From: Actinomycetota bacterium
GTDB lineage: Bacteria; Actinomycetota; Thermoleophilia; RBG-16-64-13
Direction: 5' to 3'
Assembly (NCBI GenBank): GCA_003157225.1
Contig: PMIZ01000151.1
Coordinates: 1-7,562 of the forward strand
DNA: 7,562 nucleotides
The notes beneath the pieces are model-generated. The model saw only the letters and a program-made list of their open reading frames with translations. It had not been told where the DNA came from and ran no database searches. Position 1 is the first letter of the stretch, and each line of letters opens with the position of its first letter. Of the stretch, positions 2-7,562 are shown one piece after another. A program made the translations under genes and the position numbers.

Positions 2-880
2 AACAACAAGGAGTGGATCAAGAAGTACTCCGGCTATGAGCTGGGGGTGGACGTCGTACCGATCGGGAACACGGGCAAGACCGGGGATGGCATCCGCATG
101 GCCTGGGAAGCCGGCGCGGCCGAGGAGGGAATCCGGCTGCTCGAGCTGTTCAGGGTGGCCGCGTTCGGGCCGGAATTCGCCACCTGGAACGACATCGAGA
201 TCGCCGGGGCGCAGCCCGATCTCTGGGTGACCGCCTCAGGGGAGAGGTTCTGCGACGAGACTATCGGCTTCTTCGACACCGAGGTGGGCAACGCCAACGC
301 CCGCTACGGCAAGAACGGCTATACGTGGTCTCTCATGGACGACTCCATGATCGCCCAGATGATGGAGCGTGGCATCGACAACAACGTGGGCGCCGAGTTC
401 ATGCCGGGCTACAGGCCGATGAACGTGCGCGAACAGATCCAGGTCGCGATGGATAATGGGACCACGGAGGTCGTGGCCGCCGGGTCCATCGAGGAGTTGG
501 CCGCAAAGATGGGCGCCGACCCACACGTGCTGAGAGCTGAAGTGGATGAGTACAACCGCTATTGCGCCCAGGGTCACGACGAGCTCTTCGCGAAGGAGCG
601 CCGCTTTCTTCGTCCCTTGCTTGGCCCCAGGTTCTACGCCGTGAGGGGTCGTACCGTATTCCTCGGTACGATGGGTGGCATCAAGGTCAATGAGAGGTTG
701 GAAGTTGTCGACAAGAACGAAGCCGGCGTTCCCGGACTCTACGCGGGTGGTTTTGACGCCGGTGGCATGTTCGGGGATAGCTACCCCATCAGGGGTTCGT
801 CCGGGCTCGCGTCGGCCTTTGCGTTCAACTCGGGGCGGATCGCGGGCAAGAGCGCACTGAAGTATCTGGGTAGCCAGTGA
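2..880 (+). CDS. FAD-dependent oxidoreductase, fumarate-reductase-like (FAD_binding_2), 5'-truncated by window
   Basis: C-terminal 292 residues of a flavoprotein; the reading frame is open from base 2 and the N-terminal dinucleotide-binding domain lies outside the window. Family marks that are visible are a GDGI(R)MA segment (about 86-106), SGERFCDE (about 236-259; the Arg is equivalent in pattern to the conserved Arg of GxRFxxE in fumarate reductases), the YNRYCAQGHD stretch, FYA followed by TMGGIKVN (668-691), and the C-terminal PGLYAGGFDAGGMFGDSYP...SGRIAG flavin-contact region (about 734-850). Such proteins reduce activated C=C bonds (fumarate, urocanate, cinnamates) or oxidise ketosteroids. 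In flavocytochrome c fumarate reductases two His precede TMGG; here Leu-Gly stand there, so fumarate itself is an unlikely substrate (inference). It ends 157 bases before the GRE gene, and a promoter lies between them, so it may belong to a separate transcript with a related role. Family call is firm, substrate unknown. Confidence 0.85.
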   Translation, partial: NNKEWIKKYSGYELGVDVVPIGNTGKTGDGIRMAWEAGAAEEGIRLLELFRVAAFGPEFATWNDIEIAGAQPDLWVTASGERFCDETIGFFDTEVGNANARYGKNGYTWSLMDDSMIAQMMERGIDNNVGAEFMPGYRPMNVREQIQVAMDNGTTEVVAAGSIEELAAKMGADPHVLRAEVDEYNRYCAQGHDELFAKERRFLRPLLGPRFYAVRGRTVFLGTMGGIKVNERLEVVDKNEAGVPGLYAGGFDAGGMFGDSYPIRGSSGLASAFAFNSGRIAGKSALKYLGSQ

Positions 881-1037: not shown

Positions 1038-3593
1038 ATGACAGCCGATAACTCTAACGTTGTTCCCGTAATCACTGGCGCAATCGCGCCGGAGGCTGCC
1101 AAGGAGATCAAGTCCGCGGTCGTGATGACCGATCGCCTCAAGAAGCTGAAGAAGGAATGGGAAGATTCCTCGCCCCAGGTATATGTCGACGATACGCTGC
1201 TCTTCACCGAATCCTGGAAAGAGACCGAGGCGATGCCGGTCGACTATCGCTGGGCCAAGACATTCCAGAAGAGACTGGAGAATTGCCCCATCCTGATCCG
1301 CGACCCGGAGATCATCGTCGGCTCGTCGACCAAGTTCATCCGCGGTAACAACGTCACCTGCGCCATGAAGCCGCGCGAGATCCTCGCAATGTGTGAGAGC
1401 GGCAGCTTCGACCGCAAGCTGAGCGATATCTCCTCGACTGTGATCGATCCCGAAGACCTGGAGAAGCTCAAGGCGGACGCGGAGTACTGGGTCGAACACA
1501 TGAACCCGGTCAACTACGTGAACGTCGCTTTGGAAGAGGAGCTCGGCAAGGAGCACTTCGATCTGCTGTTCGACCACGGCATGGTCTTCGAAGGCCGTGC
1601 GGTGCGTGAGAACCCCGACCGCGGCCTATTCCAGGGCAACGGCGCCTTCGGCGGCGGTGTGGTCCAGCCCAGCGGCGAGGTCCTAAGGCATGGCTTCAAC
1701 TACGTCATCGGCTTGGCCAAGGCCGAGCTGGAGAAGATGAAGGCCGAGGGAGCGATGGAGCTCCGCGCGAGTTCGAGCGCCCTTCGGAAGTGGTACCTAC
1801 TCAAGTCCATCGTCGTCATGTTCGAAGCCGTTATCACCTTCGCGAACAGGCATGCCGCGCTTGCTCGCGAGCTGGCCGCCAAGACGACCGACCCCGTTCG
1901 CAAGGCCGAGCTCGAGAAGATCGCCAGCGTATGCGACCGTGTCCCGGCCGAACCCCCGCGCGACTTCTGGGAAGCTGTCCAGTCGGTGCGCTTCATGCAT
2001 CTCGCCGCCTGGAAAGAGAGCTCCGACCGCGCTGAAGTGCCGGTCGGCAGGATCGACCAGTTCTGGTATCCGTGGTACAAGCAGGACATCGAGAGCGGTA
2101 AACTCACCCGCCAGCAGGCGGCGGAGCTCGTCGGCGCGATGTGGTTGAAGATCCGCGAGGTCGAGAACCTGGTCACCATCAAGCGCGAGCATCGTGCAGC
2201 CCCCGGCAGTCAGCTGCCCAACGTGACCCTCTGCGGCCGCGACAAGGACGGCAACGATCTTACCAACGAGCTTTCGTGGTTGGTGCTCGAGGTCATGGCT
2301 CAGATCCATCTGTCCGAGCCGGCAGTCTACGTCCGCTACCACGAAGATCAGGACGAGAAATTCATCGTCCACGCGCTCGAGTGCAACCGGGAATTCGGCG
2401 GTGGGAACCCGGCGTTTCTCAACGACGAGCTCGGCACTCAGCGCTACCTCGATCGTGGCGTGCCCATCGAGGACGCCTGCAACTGGAACGCCAGTGGCTG
2501 CCTCGGCTATCACCTGGAATGCGCCGAGCACATGGCCGGTGCCTTCAACCTGGTACAGGCCAAGGTCATGGAGCTCACCCTGCATGACGGTTTCGACCCG
2601 CGCACGGGCAAGCAGCTAGGCCCGCACACCGGCGACGTGACGAAGTTCACCTCTATCGAGCAGTTCTATGACGCCTTCTTCAAGCAAGAGGACTACTTCG
2701 CGGACAAGATGCGGACCCACTACTTCATCTGGTGGACCACCGAGGCTGCGAACAGCCCCATGAGCGGATACCGTGCGGGCATGCTCTATCGCGACTGCAT
2801 CCCGGCGGGGCTCACCTCCCGTGAGGGCGGCGCCCGCTACCCGGTGTGCAAGGCTTCCTGGGTGGGCGACAAGGGTATCTGCGACTGCGCCGACTACCTT
2901 GCTGCGATCAAGTACCTGGTGCTCGAGCAGAAGAAGATCACCATGGCCCAGCTTCTCGAGGCGATGGATGCCAACTGGGAAGGCCATGAGGACATCCGCC
3001 AGATGTGCCTGAAGGTTTCCAAGTACGGCAACGACGACGACTACGTGGACGGCATTTTCAACTTCATCTCCCAGCGTACACAGGAGATCCTGCAGAGCCG
3101 GCCCGACCCCATCACGGGTGAGAAGCCGATGCTCTTCAAAGGGGCTGCTGCCGGCCATGTGACTCAGGGCAAAGCCGTGGGCGCGATGCCCACCGGCCGC
3201 TATGCCGGCACCCCGTTGTATGACGGCGGCACCTCGGCCATGCCCGGCGGCGACGTGAATGGTCCCACCGCCCTTATCATGTCGGCCACCAAGTGGATGC
3301 ATGCCAGGGAATTGGCGGGTCAGGCCCACAACATGAAGTTCTCCAAGGCCGTGCTCAACACGCCGGAGAAGCTGAGCAAGATGGGCGCGCTCATCAAGAC
3401 CTACATGAAGCGTGGTGGCTGGCACATCCAGTTCAATATCCACAGCGCCAAAGAACTGATGGCGGCCCGCAAGGAGCCCGCGGCTCACAAGGACTTGCTG
3501 GTCCGCGTGGGTGGCTACAGTGCCTACTTCGTCGACCTGCCGCCTGAACTGCAGGACGAGATCGTCCAGCGCACGATGCACGAAGTGGGCTGA
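1038..3593 (+). CDS. Glycyl radical enzyme (PFL-like family) with atypical cysteine loop, reaction unknown
   Basis: Complete 851-residue catalytic subunit of the pyruvate formate-lyase/glycerol dehydratase superfamily, within the usual size range. The PFL-like barrel fills roughly residues 20-700 and the glycyl radical domain the C-terminus. The radical motif reads RVGGYS at 823-828, so Gly826 carries the stable radical. The thiyl radical Cys is most likely Cys488 in the loop SGCLGYHLEC (486-495). In GRE dehydratases, TMA lyase and related lyases this loop reads GCVEP or GCxE, with a catalytic Glu two residues after Cys; here that position is Gly490. The preceding NW-x4-C spacing and the DELGT segment resemble benzylsuccinate synthase, but no Arg follows Cys488 where that enzyme binds fumarate. 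Start ATG at 1038 has AAGGGAG at 1026-1032, five bases upstream. It is the first gene of the operon, behind a promoter and palindrome, and its activase follows. The fold and radical mechanism are well supported. Substrate and reaction are not; lyase, decarboxylase or C-C bond-forming activity all remain possible. Confidence 0.95.
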   Translation: MTADNSNVVPVITGAIAPEAAKEIKSAVVMTDRLKKLKKEWEDSSPQVYVDDTLLFTESWKETEAMPVDYRWAKTFQKRLENCPILIRDPEIIVGSSTKFIRGNNVTCAMKPREILAMCESGSFDRKLSDISSTVIDPEDLEKLKADAEYWVEHMNPVNYVNVALEEELGKEHFDLLFDHGMVFEGRAVRENPDRGLFQGNGAFGGGVVQPSGEVLRHGFNYVIGLAKAELEKMKAEGAMELRASSSALRKWYLLKSIVVMFEAVITFANRHAALARELAAKTTDPVRKAELEKIASVCDRVPAEPPRDFWEAVQSVRFMHLAAWKESSDRAEVPVGRIDQFWYPWYKQDIESGKLTRQQAAELVGAMWLKIREVENLVTIKREHRAAPGSQLPNVTLCGRDKDGNDLTNELSWLVLEVMAQIHLSEPAVYVRYHEDQDEKFIVHALECNREFGGGNPAFLNDELGTQRYLDRGVPIEDACNWNASGCLGYHLECAEHMAGAFNLVQAKVMELTLHDGFDPRTGKQLGPHTGDVTKFTSIEQFYDAFFKQEDYFADKMRTHYFIWWTTEAANSPMSGYRAGMLYRDCIPAGLTSREGGARYPVCKASWVGDKGICDCADYLAAIKYLVLEQKKITMAQLLEAMDANWEGHEDIRQMCLKVSKYGNDDDYVDGIFNFISQRTQEILQSRPDPITGEKPMLFKGAAAGHVTQGKAVGAMPTGRYAGTPLYDGGTSAMPGGDVNGPTALIMSATKWMHARELAGQAHNMKFSKAVLNTPEKLSKMGALIKTYMKRGGWHIQFNIHSAKELMAARKEPAAHKDLLVRVGGYSAYFVDLPPELQDEIVQRTMHEVG

Positions 3594-3678: not shown

Positions 3679-4590
3679 GTGACGAGCGTCAAGGGCACGG
3701 TGTTCAACATCCAGAGGTACAGCATCGACGACGGTCCGGGTATCCGTACGACCGTCTTCTTCAAGGGCTGTCCGCTGAGTTGCGTGTGGTGTTCAAACCC
3801 GGAGTCCCAAAACCTTGACCCTGAGTTGATGCACCGGGGCTCCCTCTGCAAGCGCTGCTTCCGTTGCGTGGAGACATGCCCGGTGGGGGCCATCACGGTC
3901 GGGCCGGACGGCATCGTCATCGACCGCGACGCCTGTACGGTGTGCGGCGATTGCGTCGAGGCCTGTCCCCACGATGCTCTGCGGATCACAGGCAAGGAGA
4001 TGACCGTAGACGAGGTAGTCGCCATGGTCGAGCGCGACTCCGACTTCTACCGCGATTCAGGCGGAGGCCTCACCCTGTCCGGGGGTGAGGTACTGCTCCA
4101 GCCAGAGTTCGCGCGGGAACTGCTGAAGCGTTGCCAGGAGGCGGGCATCCATACCTGCCTGGACACCTCCGGGCAGGGAGACACCGAAGCCCTGTTGCGA
4201 CTTCTCCCGTACGTCGATCTCTGCTACTTCGATATCAAGCACCTCGACCCCAGAGCGCACCGAGCCGAGACCGGACGCTCCAACGAGAAGATACTTACCA
4301 ACTTCATCGAGGTCGCAAAGAGCGCCGTTCCGCTGGTGGTCCGCGTACCCGTGATCCCCGGCTTTAACGACACGAGCGACGCTATCGCCGACATCGCCGA
4401 GTTGGTGGCCGTCAACGCTCCGAGAGCAGCCGTGCACCTGCTACCGTATCATCGGTATGGACAGCAGAAGTACGCCATGCTCGGCCTGGACTACGAACTG
4501 TCGGCGGCCGAAACTCCCTCGCCGGAGTTCATGAACGCCGCTCGCAACATCGTGGAAGCTCGAGGACTGCACTGCGAGGTCGCCGTATAG
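3679..4590 (+). CDS. Glycyl radical enzyme activating enzyme (radical SAM, 8Fe ferredoxin insert)
   Basis: 303-residue activase that uses S-adenosylmethionine to abstract hydrogen from the Gly826 site of its partner GRE. The SAM-cluster motif is CPLSCVWC (Cys31, Cys35, Cys38; CX3CX2C). Two ferredoxin-type CX2CX2CX3C sets follow at Cys57-Cys67 and Cys86-Cys96, the insert typical of activases for non-PFL GREs such as glycerol dehydratase, benzylsuccinate synthase and arylacetate decarboxylase. SGGE at 134-137 is the glycine-rich SAM-contacting motif. The N-terminal IQRYSIDDGPGIRT is the family signature. The start is GTG at 3679 with GAGGAG upstream; the first in-frame ATG would remove the SAM cluster. 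Its position right behind the GRE makes the pairing safe. A strong hairpin lies between the two genes, so the activase is probably made in lower amount than its substrate protein. All iron-sulfur cysteines are intact. Confidence 0.95.
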   Translation: MTSVKGTVFNIQRYSIDDGPGIRTTVFFKGCPLSCVWCSNPESQNLDPELMHRGSLCKRCFRCVETCPVGAITVGPDGIVIDRDACTVCGDCVEACPHDALRITGKEMTVDEVVAMVERDSDFYRDSGGGLTLSGGEVLLQPEFARELLKRCQEAGIHTCLDTSGQGDTEALLRLLPYVDLCYFDIKHLDPRAHRAETGRSNEKILTNFIEVAKSAVPLVVRVPVIPGFNDTSDAIADIAELVAVNAPRAAVHLLPYHRYGQQKYAMLGLDYELSAAETPSPEFMNAARNIVEARGLHCEVAV

Positions 4591-4628: not shown

Positions 4629-5063
4629 ATGGAGGACCATCTAGGCTGTGTCATCACAGGGACCATCGGCGTCGACGCTCACGTCATCGGCACCAAGGTC
4701 ATTTCGCGGGCGCTCCGCGAGGCCGGCTTCAAGGTCGTCGAGCTCGGTGCTCAGACCCCGGCCGAGGAGTTCATCATGGCCGCACAGGAGACCGCGGCAG
4801 ACGCCATGATGATCAGCTCGCTGTACGGCATGGCCGAGTTGGACCTCGAGGGCTTTCGCGACAAATGCACGGAAGCAGGCCTGGAAGACATCGTTCTCTA
4901 CGTGGGGGGTATCCTCGGTGTGGCTCGTCGCAATTTCGCCGAGGACGAAGCGAAATTCAAGCAGATGGGTTTCGACCGAGTCTATCCGCCCGAGACCGAT
5001 ATCCGCCAGGGCATCAAGGACCTCAAGGCCGATCTCGCCCAGAAGCGGGCCGAGCGCCCGTAG
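4629..5063 (+). CDS. glmS: Cobalamin-binding subunit of a B12-dependent mutase, GlmS (methylaspartate mutase sigma) type
   Basis: 144-residue Rossmann-like B12-binding protein. The base-off/His-on signature is complete: DAHVIG (Asp16, His18, Gly21; DxHxxG), SSL at 63-65 and GG at 93-94. His18 would replace dimethylbenzimidazole as the lower cobalt ligand. Beyond these motifs, SSLYG, the KCxEAGL segment, LYVGG and KQMGFDRVY match the glutamate mutase small subunit closely, more so than the C-terminal domain of methylmalonyl-CoA mutase. GlmS binds adenosylcobalamin and pairs with a catalytic barrel subunit GlmE to interconvert glutamate and 3-methylaspartate. No GlmE is present in this window, so the partner, and therefore the substrate, is unproven. 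The start at ATG 4629 was chosen for its ribosome binding site; GTG 4599 would add ten residues. The gene lies between the GRE activase and glmL, in one apparent operon. Confidence 0.9.
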   Translation: MEDHLGCVITGTIGVDAHVIGTKVISRALREAGFKVVELGAQTPAEEFIMAAQETAADAMMISSLYGMAELDLEGFRDKCTEAGLEDIVLYVGGILGVARRNFAEDEAKFKQMGFDRVYPPETDIRQGIKDLKADLAQKRAERP

Positions 5064-5095: not shown

Positions 5096-6529
5096 GTGAG
5101 AAGCACCCGCCTCTTCGTCGATTTCGGTAGCACCTTCACGAAGCTGGTCGCCTTCGATCTCGAGGCCGAGGAGCTGCTCGCTAGGGTGCAGGTGCCCTCG
5201 ACCGTAGGGCAGGACATCACCATCGGCCTCGAGGAGGCCTTCTCACTCCTCTCGGAGACCGTCCCCATCGGGGAAGCCGAACGACATCAGACCGTCGCCT
5301 GCAGCAGTGCGGCCGGCGGCCTGAGGATAGTCTGCGTCGGACTGGTCCCGGAGTACACCACGGAAGCCGGCCGCAGGGCCGCGTTGGGAGCTGGGGCCAA
5401 GGTTGTCGGCTCCTACTCGTTCGAGCTCTCCGAGACCGAGCTCCGGGAGATAGAGGAGATCGCGCCGGACATCATCCTTCTCACCGGCGGCACCGACGGC
5501 GGCAATCGGAAGGTCATCATTCACAACGCCGCGATGCTCGCTCGGTGTCCCGGCGTCGGCAACGTCATCGTAGCGGGCAATAAGTCCGCCCGTGACGACG
5601 TCGACGCATTGTTCGCCGGCTCAGGCAAGAACGTCATCTATACCGGCAACGTGATGCCGGAGATCGGCGTGCTCGAGGTCGAGGCCGCCAACCACAAGAT
5701 CAGGGAGTTGTTCATCGCCCGCATCACCGAAGCAAAGGGCATCGGCCGGGCCCGGGGAATGATCGCCGACGTGATCATGCCCACGCCTGCGGCGGTGCTT
5801 GAGGCGGCGAAGCTTCTGGCCGACGGGACTGCTCGCGAGCCGGGCATCGGAGAGTTGCTGCTGGTCGACGTGGGAGGCGCGACTACCGATGTCTACTCAG
5901 TGGCCAAAGGAGCGCCGACGGCGGGCACGGTACGGTTTCTCGGCCTGCCCGAACCCTACGCGAAACGCACGGTCGAAGGCGACCTCGGGCTGTTCCACAA
6001 CCTCGGTACCTTGAAGGAGATCGCGGAGCAGGAAGATGTGCCGGACGGCTTCGACGAGGTCGTGGAGGCCATGTGCCGGGAGAACAGCGTCCCCACCGGG
6101 GAGGAGCAGACGGAATGCCACCTCCTGCTCTCCAAGGTCGCGGTGCGTTCGGCCGTCAATCGTCACGTCGGCACGCTGAAGACCATGGTCACGCCGAACG
6201 GAGAGGTCGTGGTGCAGCGGGGCAAGGACCTCACCGCGGTGCCGTGGGTGGTGGGAGCGGGTGGCCCGGTCTCCTTCTCGGCGGATCCTGCTCAGGTGCT
6301 GGAGGGGGCCTTGTTCGAGGAGGAGCTGCCGATGCTGCTCAAGCCGAAGGCCCCGCGCATGCTCCTAGACGAGCACTACATCCTATTCGCGCTGGGGCTG
6401 CTGGCACAAAGCGAGCCGGCCAAGGCGCTGAGACTCATGCGCAAGTACGTGGCGCCCCTGCCTGGCCCGGAACGGTGGGGGAGTCGGCCGTCGGAAAAGC
6501 CTATAGGGATCGGAGGACGAACGGCATGA
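5096..6529 (+). CDS. glmL: Glutamate mutase accessory protein GlmL/MutL-like, ASKHA ATPase fold
   Basis: 477-residue protein of the MutL/GlmL family, encoded beside glmS-type genes and thought to act as an ATP-dependent chaperone or reactivating factor for the B12 mutase. The N-terminus LFVDFGSTFTK (6-16) is the phosphate-1 motif of the actin/hexokinase/Hsp70 fold. LTGGTDGGN at 129-137, and DVGGATTD at 258-265 as the phosphate-2 motif, are also intact. The C-terminal segment LDEHYILFALGLL is typical of the family. The frame is open far upstream (to 4865), but that part overlaps glmS and has no family similarity. GTG at 5096 is the only usable start between the glmS stop and the ATPase motif, though no clear Shine-Dalgarno is in front of it, so it may depend on translation of glmS, which ends 32 bases earlier. 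Its stop overlaps the next start (ATGA). The length is near the usual 460-480 residues. Confidence 0.9.
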   Translation: MRSTRLFVDFGSTFTKLVAFDLEAEELLARVQVPSTVGQDITIGLEEAFSLLSETVPIGEAERHQTVACSSAAGGLRIVCVGLVPEYTTEAGRRAALGAGAKVVGSYSFELSETELREIEEIAPDIILLTGGTDGGNRKVIIHNAAMLARCPGVGNVIVAGNKSARDDVDALFAGSGKNVIYTGNVMPEIGVLEVEAANHKIRELFIARITEAKGIGRARGMIADVIMPTPAAVLEAAKLLADGTAREPGIGELLLVDVGGATTDVYSVAKGAPTAGTVRFLGLPEPYAKRTVEGDLGLFHNLGTLKEIAEQEDVPDGFDEVVEAMCRENSVPTGEEQTECHLLLSKVAVRSAVNRHVGTLKTMVTPNGEVVVQRGKDLTAVPWVVGAGGPVSFSADPAQVLEGALFEEELPMLLKPKAPRMLLDEHYILFALGLLAQSEPAKALRLMRKYVAPLPGPERWGSRPSEKPIGIGGRTA

Positions 6530-6987
6530 AGCCGACGTATGACGAGATCGTGCAGTGGATGAAGGAGTACTTCGCCACCTACAATCTCTACGCGCAAGAC
6601 GCGGCTACCGTGCACGAGATGGACAAGTACTTCGCTCCCGACCTGAGGTTCATGCCGTACATGTCGGTCTTCGGCGGGCCGGATGCCGGTCATACCTCCA
6701 GCGAGGATTTCTACCAGATGCTCACCGGCCATCCGGACGACTACGAGCAGTTCCAGTTGCTGGACGTCTTCGTGGATGACGAACGTCTGGTAGCGGTCGC
6801 CTTTCTCATCGCGACCATTTTCGACACGAAGACGAATGAAGTGCTCGTGAAGAAGCACTACCTGCCTCTCTACGAGTTGGTCATGGATGACAAGGGCACT
6901 CTCAAGATCAAGACAATCCGGTTCTTCTGGGAAGCTTCCCCGCCGGAGGTCGACGCAAGGTACTCCGGCGCCACAAAGGAGCGTTAA
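6526..6987 (+). CDS. Small NTF2/SnoaL-like protein, function unknown
   Basis: 153 residues starting at ATG 6526, with GGAGGA at 6512-6517 eight bases upstream. It overlaps the glmL stop by ATGA, so the two are translationally coupled. An N-terminal amphipathic helix (about 5-20) with a Tyr/Phe-rich continuation to about residue 45 is followed by alternating beta-like stretches (for example LLDVFVDDERLVAVAFLIATIFD and HYLPLYELVMDDKGTLKIKTIRFFWE), which is the arrangement of the NTF2 cone fold. Members of that fold include steroid isomerases, SnoaL polyketide cyclases and the bile-acid dehydratase BaiE, as well as non-catalytic binding proteins. I cannot assign a catalytic His/Asp/Tyr set. There is no signal peptide or membrane segment, so it is cytoplasmic. 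Its place between glmL and a flavin oxidoreductase suggests an isomerase, dehydratase or lactonase-like step on the pathway intermediate, or a binding subunit; this is inference. The fold call is by pattern, not by a clear motif. Confidence 0.6.
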   Translation: MKPTYDEIVQWMKEYFATYNLYAQDAATVHEMDKYFAPDLRFMPYMSVFGGPDAGHTSSEDFYQMLTGHPDDYEQFQLLDVFVDDERLVAVAFLIATIFDTKTNEVLVKKHYLPLYELVMDDKGTLKIKTIRFFWEASPPEVDARYSGATKER

Positions 6988-6993
6988 GGCACG

Positions 6994-7562
6994 ATGACTT
7001 CCGCATACGAAAAGCTGCTTTCACCCGGCAAGATCGGGAATGTGACCACGCGCAACCGCGTCATCAAGACCGGCGCGGGTGTGATGATGTGGCACGAAGA
7101 CGACACCGTCATGAGGGACGAAGTCCTGGCCTTCTATGAAGGCATGGCACGAGGCGGCACCGGCCTCATCATCGTCGAGTCGCCCACGGTCGACTATCCG
7201 GCGGGTTGTCGCTGGCGCGATCGCTACCGTCTCGACGACGACAAGTTCATCCCAGGGATGGCGCAGATCGCCGAGGTCATCCACAAGCACGGCTGCCCCA
7301 CCTTCATGCAGATGAACCACGACGGCACCTGGCAGGTGAACCTACCCTTCGTGCCTGACCCGCCGTACACGGGGCTGCCCTACGCCGCCTCGGAAGTGGT
7401 AGTTCCCTGTGACACGGACTTTCACAACGAGGTCCCCCATTCGCTCACTATCCCCGAGATCGAGGACGTGGTGCAGAAGTTCGCCCAGTGCGCCTTGCGG
7501 GCCAAGAAGGCGGGCTTCGACGGCGTCGACATCAACGCCTCGAGCAGCCACCTGCTGCACAA
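6994..7562 (+). CDS. Old Yellow Enzyme family NADH:flavin oxidoreductase, 3'-truncated by window
   Basis: First 189 residues of a TIM-barrel FMN enzyme; the rest lies beyond the window. The start is ATG 6994 with AAGGAG at 6976-6981 (12 bases away), six bases after the preceding stop. Family marks are LLSPGKIGNVTTRNRVIKT (8-26), GGTGLIIVES (54-63), QMNHDG (106-111; usually QLxHxG) and AGFDGVDIN (173-181). Family members include 2-enoate reductase, 2,4-dienoyl-CoA reductase, BaiCD/BaiH and trimethylamine dehydrogenase; whether this one also has the C-terminal iron-sulfur and FAD domains cannot be seen. The strand usually reading EIHxAHGYL reads DINASSSHL (179-187), so both substrate-anchoring His are replaced (Asn181, Ser184) and the catalytic Tyr position carries His186. 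The protein probably acts on an unusual substrate. It is the seventh gene in the row and likely co-transcribed with the NTF2-like gene. Confidence 0.85.
   Translation, partial: MTSAYEKLLSPGKIGNVTTRNRVIKTGAGVMMWHEDDTVMRDEVLAFYEGMARGGTGLIIVESPTVDYPAGCRWRDRYRLDDDKFIPGMAQIAEVIHKHGCPTFMQMNHDGTWQVNLPFVPDPPYTGLPYAASEVVVPCDTDFHNEVPHSLTIPEIEDVVQKFAQCALRAKKAGFDGVDINASSSHLLH

Follow-up and report, generated by a model that had tools for sequence, protein, structure and literature searches.

A glycyl radical enzyme subfamily without the usual loop glutamate and its possible partnership with a glutamate-mutase-type carbon-skeleton mutase

Which reaction might a glycyl radical enzyme (GRE) perform when its thiyl-cysteine loop carries glycine at the position of the glutamate of eliminase-type GREs, and what do the genes around it suggest? 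The question is raised by a 7,562-nucleotide stretch of an Actinomycetota genome (contig PMIZ01000151.1, assembly GCA_003157225.1), hereafter the window, in which positions 1038..3593 (plus strand) encode an 851-residue, oxygen-sensitive GRE of an uncharacterized subfamily (PF02901, 523.5 bits against a gathering cutoff of 24.3; PF01228, 92.5 bits against 22.2). Downstream lie genes for GlmS and GlmL of the glutamate mutase type, and these neighbors are a stronger clue than the loop, the mutase partner being the more informative. The distinct GRE subfamily and an adenosylcobalamin-dependent carbon-skeleton mutase of the glutamate-mutase type may form one catabolic module, a reading to which a probability of about 0.45 was given. 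Many of the most demanding steps in anaerobic carbon turnover are carried out by GREs, and a pathway has been opened by every new subfamily whose reaction became known. In a literature search with preprints and most subscription journals outside its range, no paper was found on this GRE subfamily or on a link between a GRE and a mutase.

The thiyl-cysteine loop (residues 481–495, CNWNASGCLGYHLEC; 2478..2522, plus strand), read from the translation and from alignments, lies exactly where a first-pass annotation of the DNA had placed the motif SGCLGYHLEC, with Cys488 at 2499–2501 and Gly490, two residues on, at 2505–2507; the NW-x4-C context named there was also right (W483-x4-C488). Judged from its sequence, the window GRE bears the superfamily signature, with thiyl Cys488, radical-bearing Gly826 in RVGGY (3513..3515, plus strand; translation and PF01228) and an adjoining activase, and its AlphaFold2 model (pLDDT 87.7) matched GRE structures over almost its full length. 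A homologue search returned 341 proteins, and residue counts were taken from the 120 listed, the closest third, with the window protein as the first. Among these matches, the nearest full-length homologues were 82–91% identical to the window GRE and the names displayed were generic or “hypothetical protein”. Identical in 120/120 were Cys488, Leu489, Trp483, Glu427, Arg331 (2028..2030, plus strand) and the pair Glu497-His498 just 3′ of the loop (2526..2531, plus strand), while residue 490 was Gly in 115 and Ala in 5, Tyr491 was kept in 119 and His492 in 116 (Asn in 4). Because the loop is conserved among these 120 proteins, it is neither chance nor a sequencing slip. Residue 494 was not conserved (Glu in 19, Asp in 80, Ser, Ala, Gly or Asn in 21). 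Of the two acid/base groups proposed at first pass, His492 thus stays plausible, and Glu494 was rejected as a catalytic group, with Glu in only 19/120; better candidates would be Glu497, His498 and Arg331. In deeper relatives, Glu497-His498 was not conserved in L032 and L033, and His alone was kept in L031 and L037. A family-specific insertion (residues 171–193; 1548..1616, plus strand; from the alignment), with conserved Glu185 and Arg187, was filled in 119 of the 120 matches and consisted mostly of gaps in non-family GRE rows except L111.

In a 42-row alignment, Glu stood at Cys+2 in the HypD, CutC, PflD, YbiW, IslA and 4-hydroxyphenylacetate decarboxylase rows, which bears out the assignment of this residue to the dehydratase, choline lyase, hydroxyproline dehydratase and decarboxylase types; with Gly490 in its place, the window GRE falls outside the Glu-dependent eliminases defined by that residue. 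The Glu is also replaced elsewhere, by Ser in benzylsuccinate synthase (BSS) and MasD, by Gly, Tyr, Trp or Asp in neighboring unassigned lineages and by Val in a CutC-like lineage (L089, L043), and its loss is therefore not peculiar to this subfamily. The window GRE is free of Arg in the segment linking Cys488 to the AKVMEL helix, and likewise from Cys488 to residue 508, so that the fumarate-binding Arg of BSS is absent, as had been claimed. Fourteen sampled members and the distant L111 formed one clade (support 100/100) on a stem of 0.69 changes per column; seven rows (PflB, Acinet_L098, L126, L123, L127, P0062 and P0088) were removed for a second tree. The closest solved structures were about 30% identical to the window GRE and no NCBIfam equivalog scored above its cutoff (best NF048011, 474.8 against 1000), so close identity to a characterized GRE was rejected, and the alignments placed no Glu at +2. 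With its long-stemmed clade and no equivalog passed, the predicted protein represents a real, distinct and uncharacterized subfamily, in agreement with the first-pass annotation. Its records were labelled Actinomycetota, Bacillota, Deltaproteobacteria, Acidobacteria, Bacteroides, Dehalococcoidales and Bathyarchaeota.

On the mutase genes next to the GRE the first-pass annotation of the loop was silent. The window encodes the cobalamin-binding subunit GlmS/MutS (4629..5063, plus strand; NF002612, 189.4 against 110; TIGR01501, 162.9 against 135.8), whose DAHVIG motif presumably provides His18 as the axial ligand, and the glutamate mutase accessory protein GlmL/MutL (5096..6529, plus strand; NF040745, 537.6 against a cutoff of 475; PF13941). 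The third protein, GlmE, was followed in related genomes. In the family of Sporobacter termitidis (G009), which we take to be Oscillospiraceae, the GRE (at an identity of at least 59%) was found in 12/150 genomes and one GlmE type in the same 12/12 and in 0/138 others, 54 of which carry other GREs (a match at 1e-20 was obtained in 66 genomes, the 12 included). Four of the genomes without this GRE (G354, G349, G417 and G384) hold relatives at 36–47% identity and carry no GRE-linked GlmE type. Similarly, in the class of the actinobacterial genome G005 the GRE was found in 8/199 genomes and the GlmE type in 7/8 and 0/191, the GRE bearer in which it was not found being G838. The Fisher p values were 6e-18 and 4e-12, respectively, uncorrected for kinship. 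Sporobacter termitidis DSM 10068 (L025) carries both the GRE and the mutase.

The GlmE type was read from residues, since scores do not suffice: the 447 bits of L065, which belongs to yet another type, fall within the GRE-linked range. In the family of G009, PF06368 was over its cutoff in 19/150 genomes, namely the 12 with the GRE (420–473 bits; 209 for a fragment in G412), six high-scoring ones (744–778 bits) and one with a fragment (G373). Residues were read in 11 of the 12; of the ten positions, the G412 fragment reaches only the final three, with Gln at 291. In the class of G005, five of the seven were read full-length and G005 and G007 in pieces. Where the GRE is absent, seven GlmEs exceeded the cutoff in the family of G009; six were read and were canonical, and the seventh, in G423, scored 766 bits. 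In the class of G005, the three GlmEs of genomes lacking the GRE were canonical (G790), of a third type (G849) or of another (G848).

Fifty-one loci were found in genome contigs, of which 48, several from one metagenome-assembled genome, were counted as family and three (L043, L047 and L049; 31, 32 and 41% identical) were left out. At least one of GlmE, GlmS and GlmL was present in the fetched stretch of 25/48 family loci, GlmE in 18 and GlmS without GlmE, with or without GlmL, in 7 more; the remaining 23 showed no mutase gene in stretches that were shorter than 8 kb in nine cases and 22 kb long in five. A GlmE-GlmS fusion of about 640 residues was frequent and occurred in many Firmicutes. GlmE identity was checked with PF06368 and TIGR01503, the latter giving 402.8 against 390.1 for L004 and, slightly under, 382.7 for the fused protein of L024. 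GlmE was present in 13/15 genomes with relatives and was not found in the other two, G010 and G011 (Dehalococcoidales and Bathyarchaeota). The GREs of G001 and G005 share 86% and 78% identity, respectively, with that of the window, and in both genomes GlmE is encoded 15–16 kb upstream of the GRE, on the same strand of the same contig.

The substrate site of the linked mutase was examined by alignment to glutamate mutase 1cb7. All 29 distinct full-length GlmEs of the GRE-linked type from relatives' genomes (a count of this type and not of all GlmEs there) keep Arg66, Arg100 and Arg149 and share the changes E171P, Y177W and H291Q, with Glu214 replaced by Asp or Ala, and the pieces from G005 and G007 agree over the positions that they cover. 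By comparison, six canonical GlmEs and 1cb7 keep R66, R100, R149, E171, Y177 and H291, as does the G373 fragment where covered. In glutamate mutase, the glycyl moiety is held by Arg66 and Arg149 and the acrylate by Arg100 and Tyr177, and Glu171 forms a partial hydrogen bond to the amine of the glycyl moiety, according to PMC9545868. Since the three arginines are kept and the amine contact is lost, the GRE-linked mutase probably acts on a dicarboxylate without an amine, its site departing from the canonical one by E171P and Y177W. A third GlmE type, with Gln, Arg and Asn at the arginine-claw positions (L063, L066–L069 and L160), was observed in G849 as well as in five GRE-bearing genomes (G005, G001, G004, G002 and G009); where it stands in L063 and L066, GlmS and GlmL genes of its own come after it.

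Taken together, the GRE and the mutase would act as a two-radical-enzyme module on an amine-free dicarboxylate. Less certainly and more speculatively, the GRE might not perform a Glu-assisted 1,2-elimination but make, break or rearrange a C–C bond of a carboxylated substrate, and the mutase would rearrange the substrate after (or before) this step, for example by interconverting a 2-substituted glutarate and a 2-substituted 3-methylsuccinate. His498/Glu497, Arg331 and the insertion at 171–193 could bind the carboxylates of the substrate and provide groups for acid/base chemistry. The fuller version of this proposal, a GRE-mutase pathway with an undescribed C–C reaction on a dicarboxylate, possibly derived from plant aromatic acids, whose skeleton is rearranged by the mutase without the amine-binding residue, is put forward tentatively. 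If true, anaerobic digesters, guts and sediments would harbor a new catabolic route that relies on radicals. The mutase site, by pointing to a dicarboxylate without an amine, narrows the search for the GRE substrate to a testable range.

Other readings of the GRE have to be weighed against its resemblance to known enzymes. One is an ordinary eliminase resembling dehydratases or lyases, with another residue (for example Glu497, Glu427, His492 or His498) taking over from the Cys+2 Glu; it is considered somewhat unlikely. The nearest solved folds are those of diol and glycerol dehydratases, the best sequence match is a glycerol dehydratase (372.6 bits), the Cys loop is as long as that of HypD (21 residues), the CutC-like lineage with Val at +2 shows the same loss, and the iron-dependent alcohol dehydrogenase (Fe-ADH) and aldehyde dehydrogenase (ALDH) neighbors in Firmicutes resemble diol pathways. 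Fold comparison does not rank the reaction types, because the best rows were tied and many GREs were close behind, and the missed equivalog cutoffs bear on those eliminases that have such a model, which some do not. An X-succinate-synthase-like reaction, in which a substrate radical is added to fumarate or methylfumarate before the mutase acts, is improbable. It would match alkylsuccinate pathways, where a mutase follows the X-succinate synthase step, and Glu is missing at +2 and W-x4-C is present in both groups; furthermore, the conserved Gly501 lies near the position of the BSS glycines, His498 could stand in for Arg508, and BSS fell, on a long branch, within the same deep 29-row clade (99/98) of the first tree. 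However, BSS and MasD grouped elsewhere once MasD and 4-hydroxyphenylacetate decarboxylase were added to the tree, and no small beta or gamma subunits were recognized among the seven window proteins scanned, other small open reading frames (ORFs) being outside the scan. Membership of the X-succinate synthases was rejected because the window GRE has no Arg at the place of Arg508, and its loop is shorter; a similar anion site may exist at His498/Glu497. PMC12583861 assigns a limonene GRE to the X-succinate synthases.

That the GRE decarboxylates arylacetates or acids related to them is very improbable: the aromatic- or phenolic-looking neighbors (a LigM-like O-demethylase, FAD and Old-yellow-enzyme-type (OYE) reductases and aldehyde:ferredoxin oxidoreductase-like proteins (AORs), all under equivalog cutoffs) would suit it, but both 4-hydroxyphenylacetate decarboxylase rows retain Glu at +2, which in PMC6181972 is part of a proposed Cys-Glu1 dyad, and the window GRE has neither this Glu1 nor the curated family scores (NF033715, 314 against 1150; NF033718, 390 against 1100 bits). 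The module itself would be an illusion if the GRE and the mutase were merely fellow travellers in large catabolic islands, serving unrelated intermediates. About half of the family loci have no mutase gene nearby, and in the family of G009 several genomes carry GlmE and the GRE on different contigs; nevertheless, co-occurrence is tight even when the genes are unlinked, spans two phyla and concerns one GlmE type only, and this explanation is regarded as rather improbable. A nicotinate-type 2-methyleneglutarate route and the phloroglucinol route were considered as well. In the latter, the cyclohydrolase belongs to the “cyclase” family, and the term “glycyl radical” is absent from the main text of PMC10470551.

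The remaining genes of the window are all on the plus strand. The gene for an FAD_binding_2, vinylphenol-reductase-like reductase is truncated by the window start (2..880; PF00890; NF053717, 159 bits, below the cutoff of 600). The GRE is followed by its radical SAM activase (3679..4590; TIGR02494, 362.7 against 174.35), with a CxxxCxxC motif and two ferredoxin-type cysteine sets; gaps of 38 bases between activase and GlmS and of 32 bases between GlmS and GlmL follow. A 153-residue orphan protein without a Pfam or NCBIfam match (6526..6987), whose relatives recur as tandem pairs, overlaps GlmL by 4 bases, and next to it the gene of an OYE flavin oxidoreductase (6994..7562; PF00724) is truncated by the window end. 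Orphans of 150–170 residues, often paired in tandem, were observed between GlmL and the OYE gene in the window and in L001 (16463–17430), and the two that were scanned (that of the window and the first copy of L001) matched no Pfam or NCBIfam family.

In G001, GlmE is near an AOR, a short-chain dehydrogenase/reductase (SDR) and an acetophenone-carboxylase/caprolactamase-like pair, and LigM-like O-demethylase and NuoF/NuoG-like genes lie between GlmE and the GRE, none of these matches reaching an equivalog cutoff. Inspection by eye added an MmgE/PrpD-like ORF where the contig begins and a branched-chain-type ABC transporter. Firmicutes loci have Fe-ADH and ALDH neighbors, together with TRAP-type transporter genes named by eye. 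The actinobacterial O-demethylase-like, ene-reductase and AOR neighbors are a weak hint of plant-derived aromatic acids, and the Fe-ADH/ALDH pairs a similarly weak hint of organic acids or alcohols. Small proteins recur beside the GRE (L002, 6064–6549, with a weak Cupin_2 match; L001, 15459–15959) and are possibly a further pathway enzyme; by eye, similar-looking small proteins adjoin a distant L111-type GRE in L134 (3770–5940). An MmgE/PrpD-HyuA-HyuB block that also has an SDR and a part resembling acetone carboxylase gamma was seen near GRE or mutase genes in L004, L040, L072, L077 and L079, which suggests an ATP-dependent carboxylase or lactamase step.

Other GREs were noticed during the survey. 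Sporobacter-related genomes contain more lineages without Glu at Cys+2, with Gly (L112–L114), Asp (L115 and L117), Tyr or Trp (L116, L118 and L120) and again Asp (L121 and L122), and two proteins of the L112–L114 lineage (L129 and L130) passed no NCBIfam cutoff. The CutC-like GREs of Peptoclostridium acidaminophilum (L089; 782 bits against a cutoff of 1050 for the CutC model) and Sedimentibacter hydroxybenzoicus (L043) have GCVVP, with Val at the catalytic Glu of choline lyase, and their reaction is perhaps not choline cleavage. In PDB entry 8iof the molecule is named benzylsuccinate synthase alpha subunit, the title reads N-methyl-cis-4-hydroxy-D-proline dehydratase and the sequence has GCVE; the molecule name could misdirect name-based annotation.

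Compared with known systems, the mutase side is closest to canonical glutamate (methylaspartate) mutase, in that the window's GlmS and GlmL score above curated cutoffs and GlmE of the relatives keeps the arginine claw, but with the full PF06368 model GlmEs of GRE-bearing genomes score 420–523 bits against 692–778 for full-length canonical ones. Glycerol and 1,2-propanediol dehydratases (1r8w, 5i2g) are about 32% identical to the window GRE, which differs by Gly in place of Glu at Cys+2 and by the extra 23-residue insertion. Arg331 falls at or beside the position of glycerol dehydratase His281, which we take to contact glycerol; the HMMER alignment pairs the two, and MAFFT places Arg331 in the adjacent gap, one residue off. 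HypD (6vxc; 362 bits) has the same distance of 21 residues from Cys to the next Lys; however, it has Glu at +2, and the window GRE reaches 453 bits with NF043068 against a cutoff of 1100. BSS and (1-methylalkyl)succinate synthase (MASS; 4pkc and 9o8u) share with the window GRE the absence of Glu at +2, W-x4-C and a Gly after the Cys loop, at 27–28% identity, and the BSS alpha chain L088 (1590 bits to 4pkc) shows C-M-S-P and an Arg 15 residues past the Cys. One fumarate carboxylate is contacted by Arg508 in BSS and Arg492 in MASS, as stated in PMC12358834. The window GRE lacks an equivalent of this Arg and has a Cys loop five residues shorter than that of BSS, yet counting back from the next helix by hand on the alignment rows, uncertain by one residue, puts His498 (Glu497 if shifted by one) at the position of BSS Arg508.

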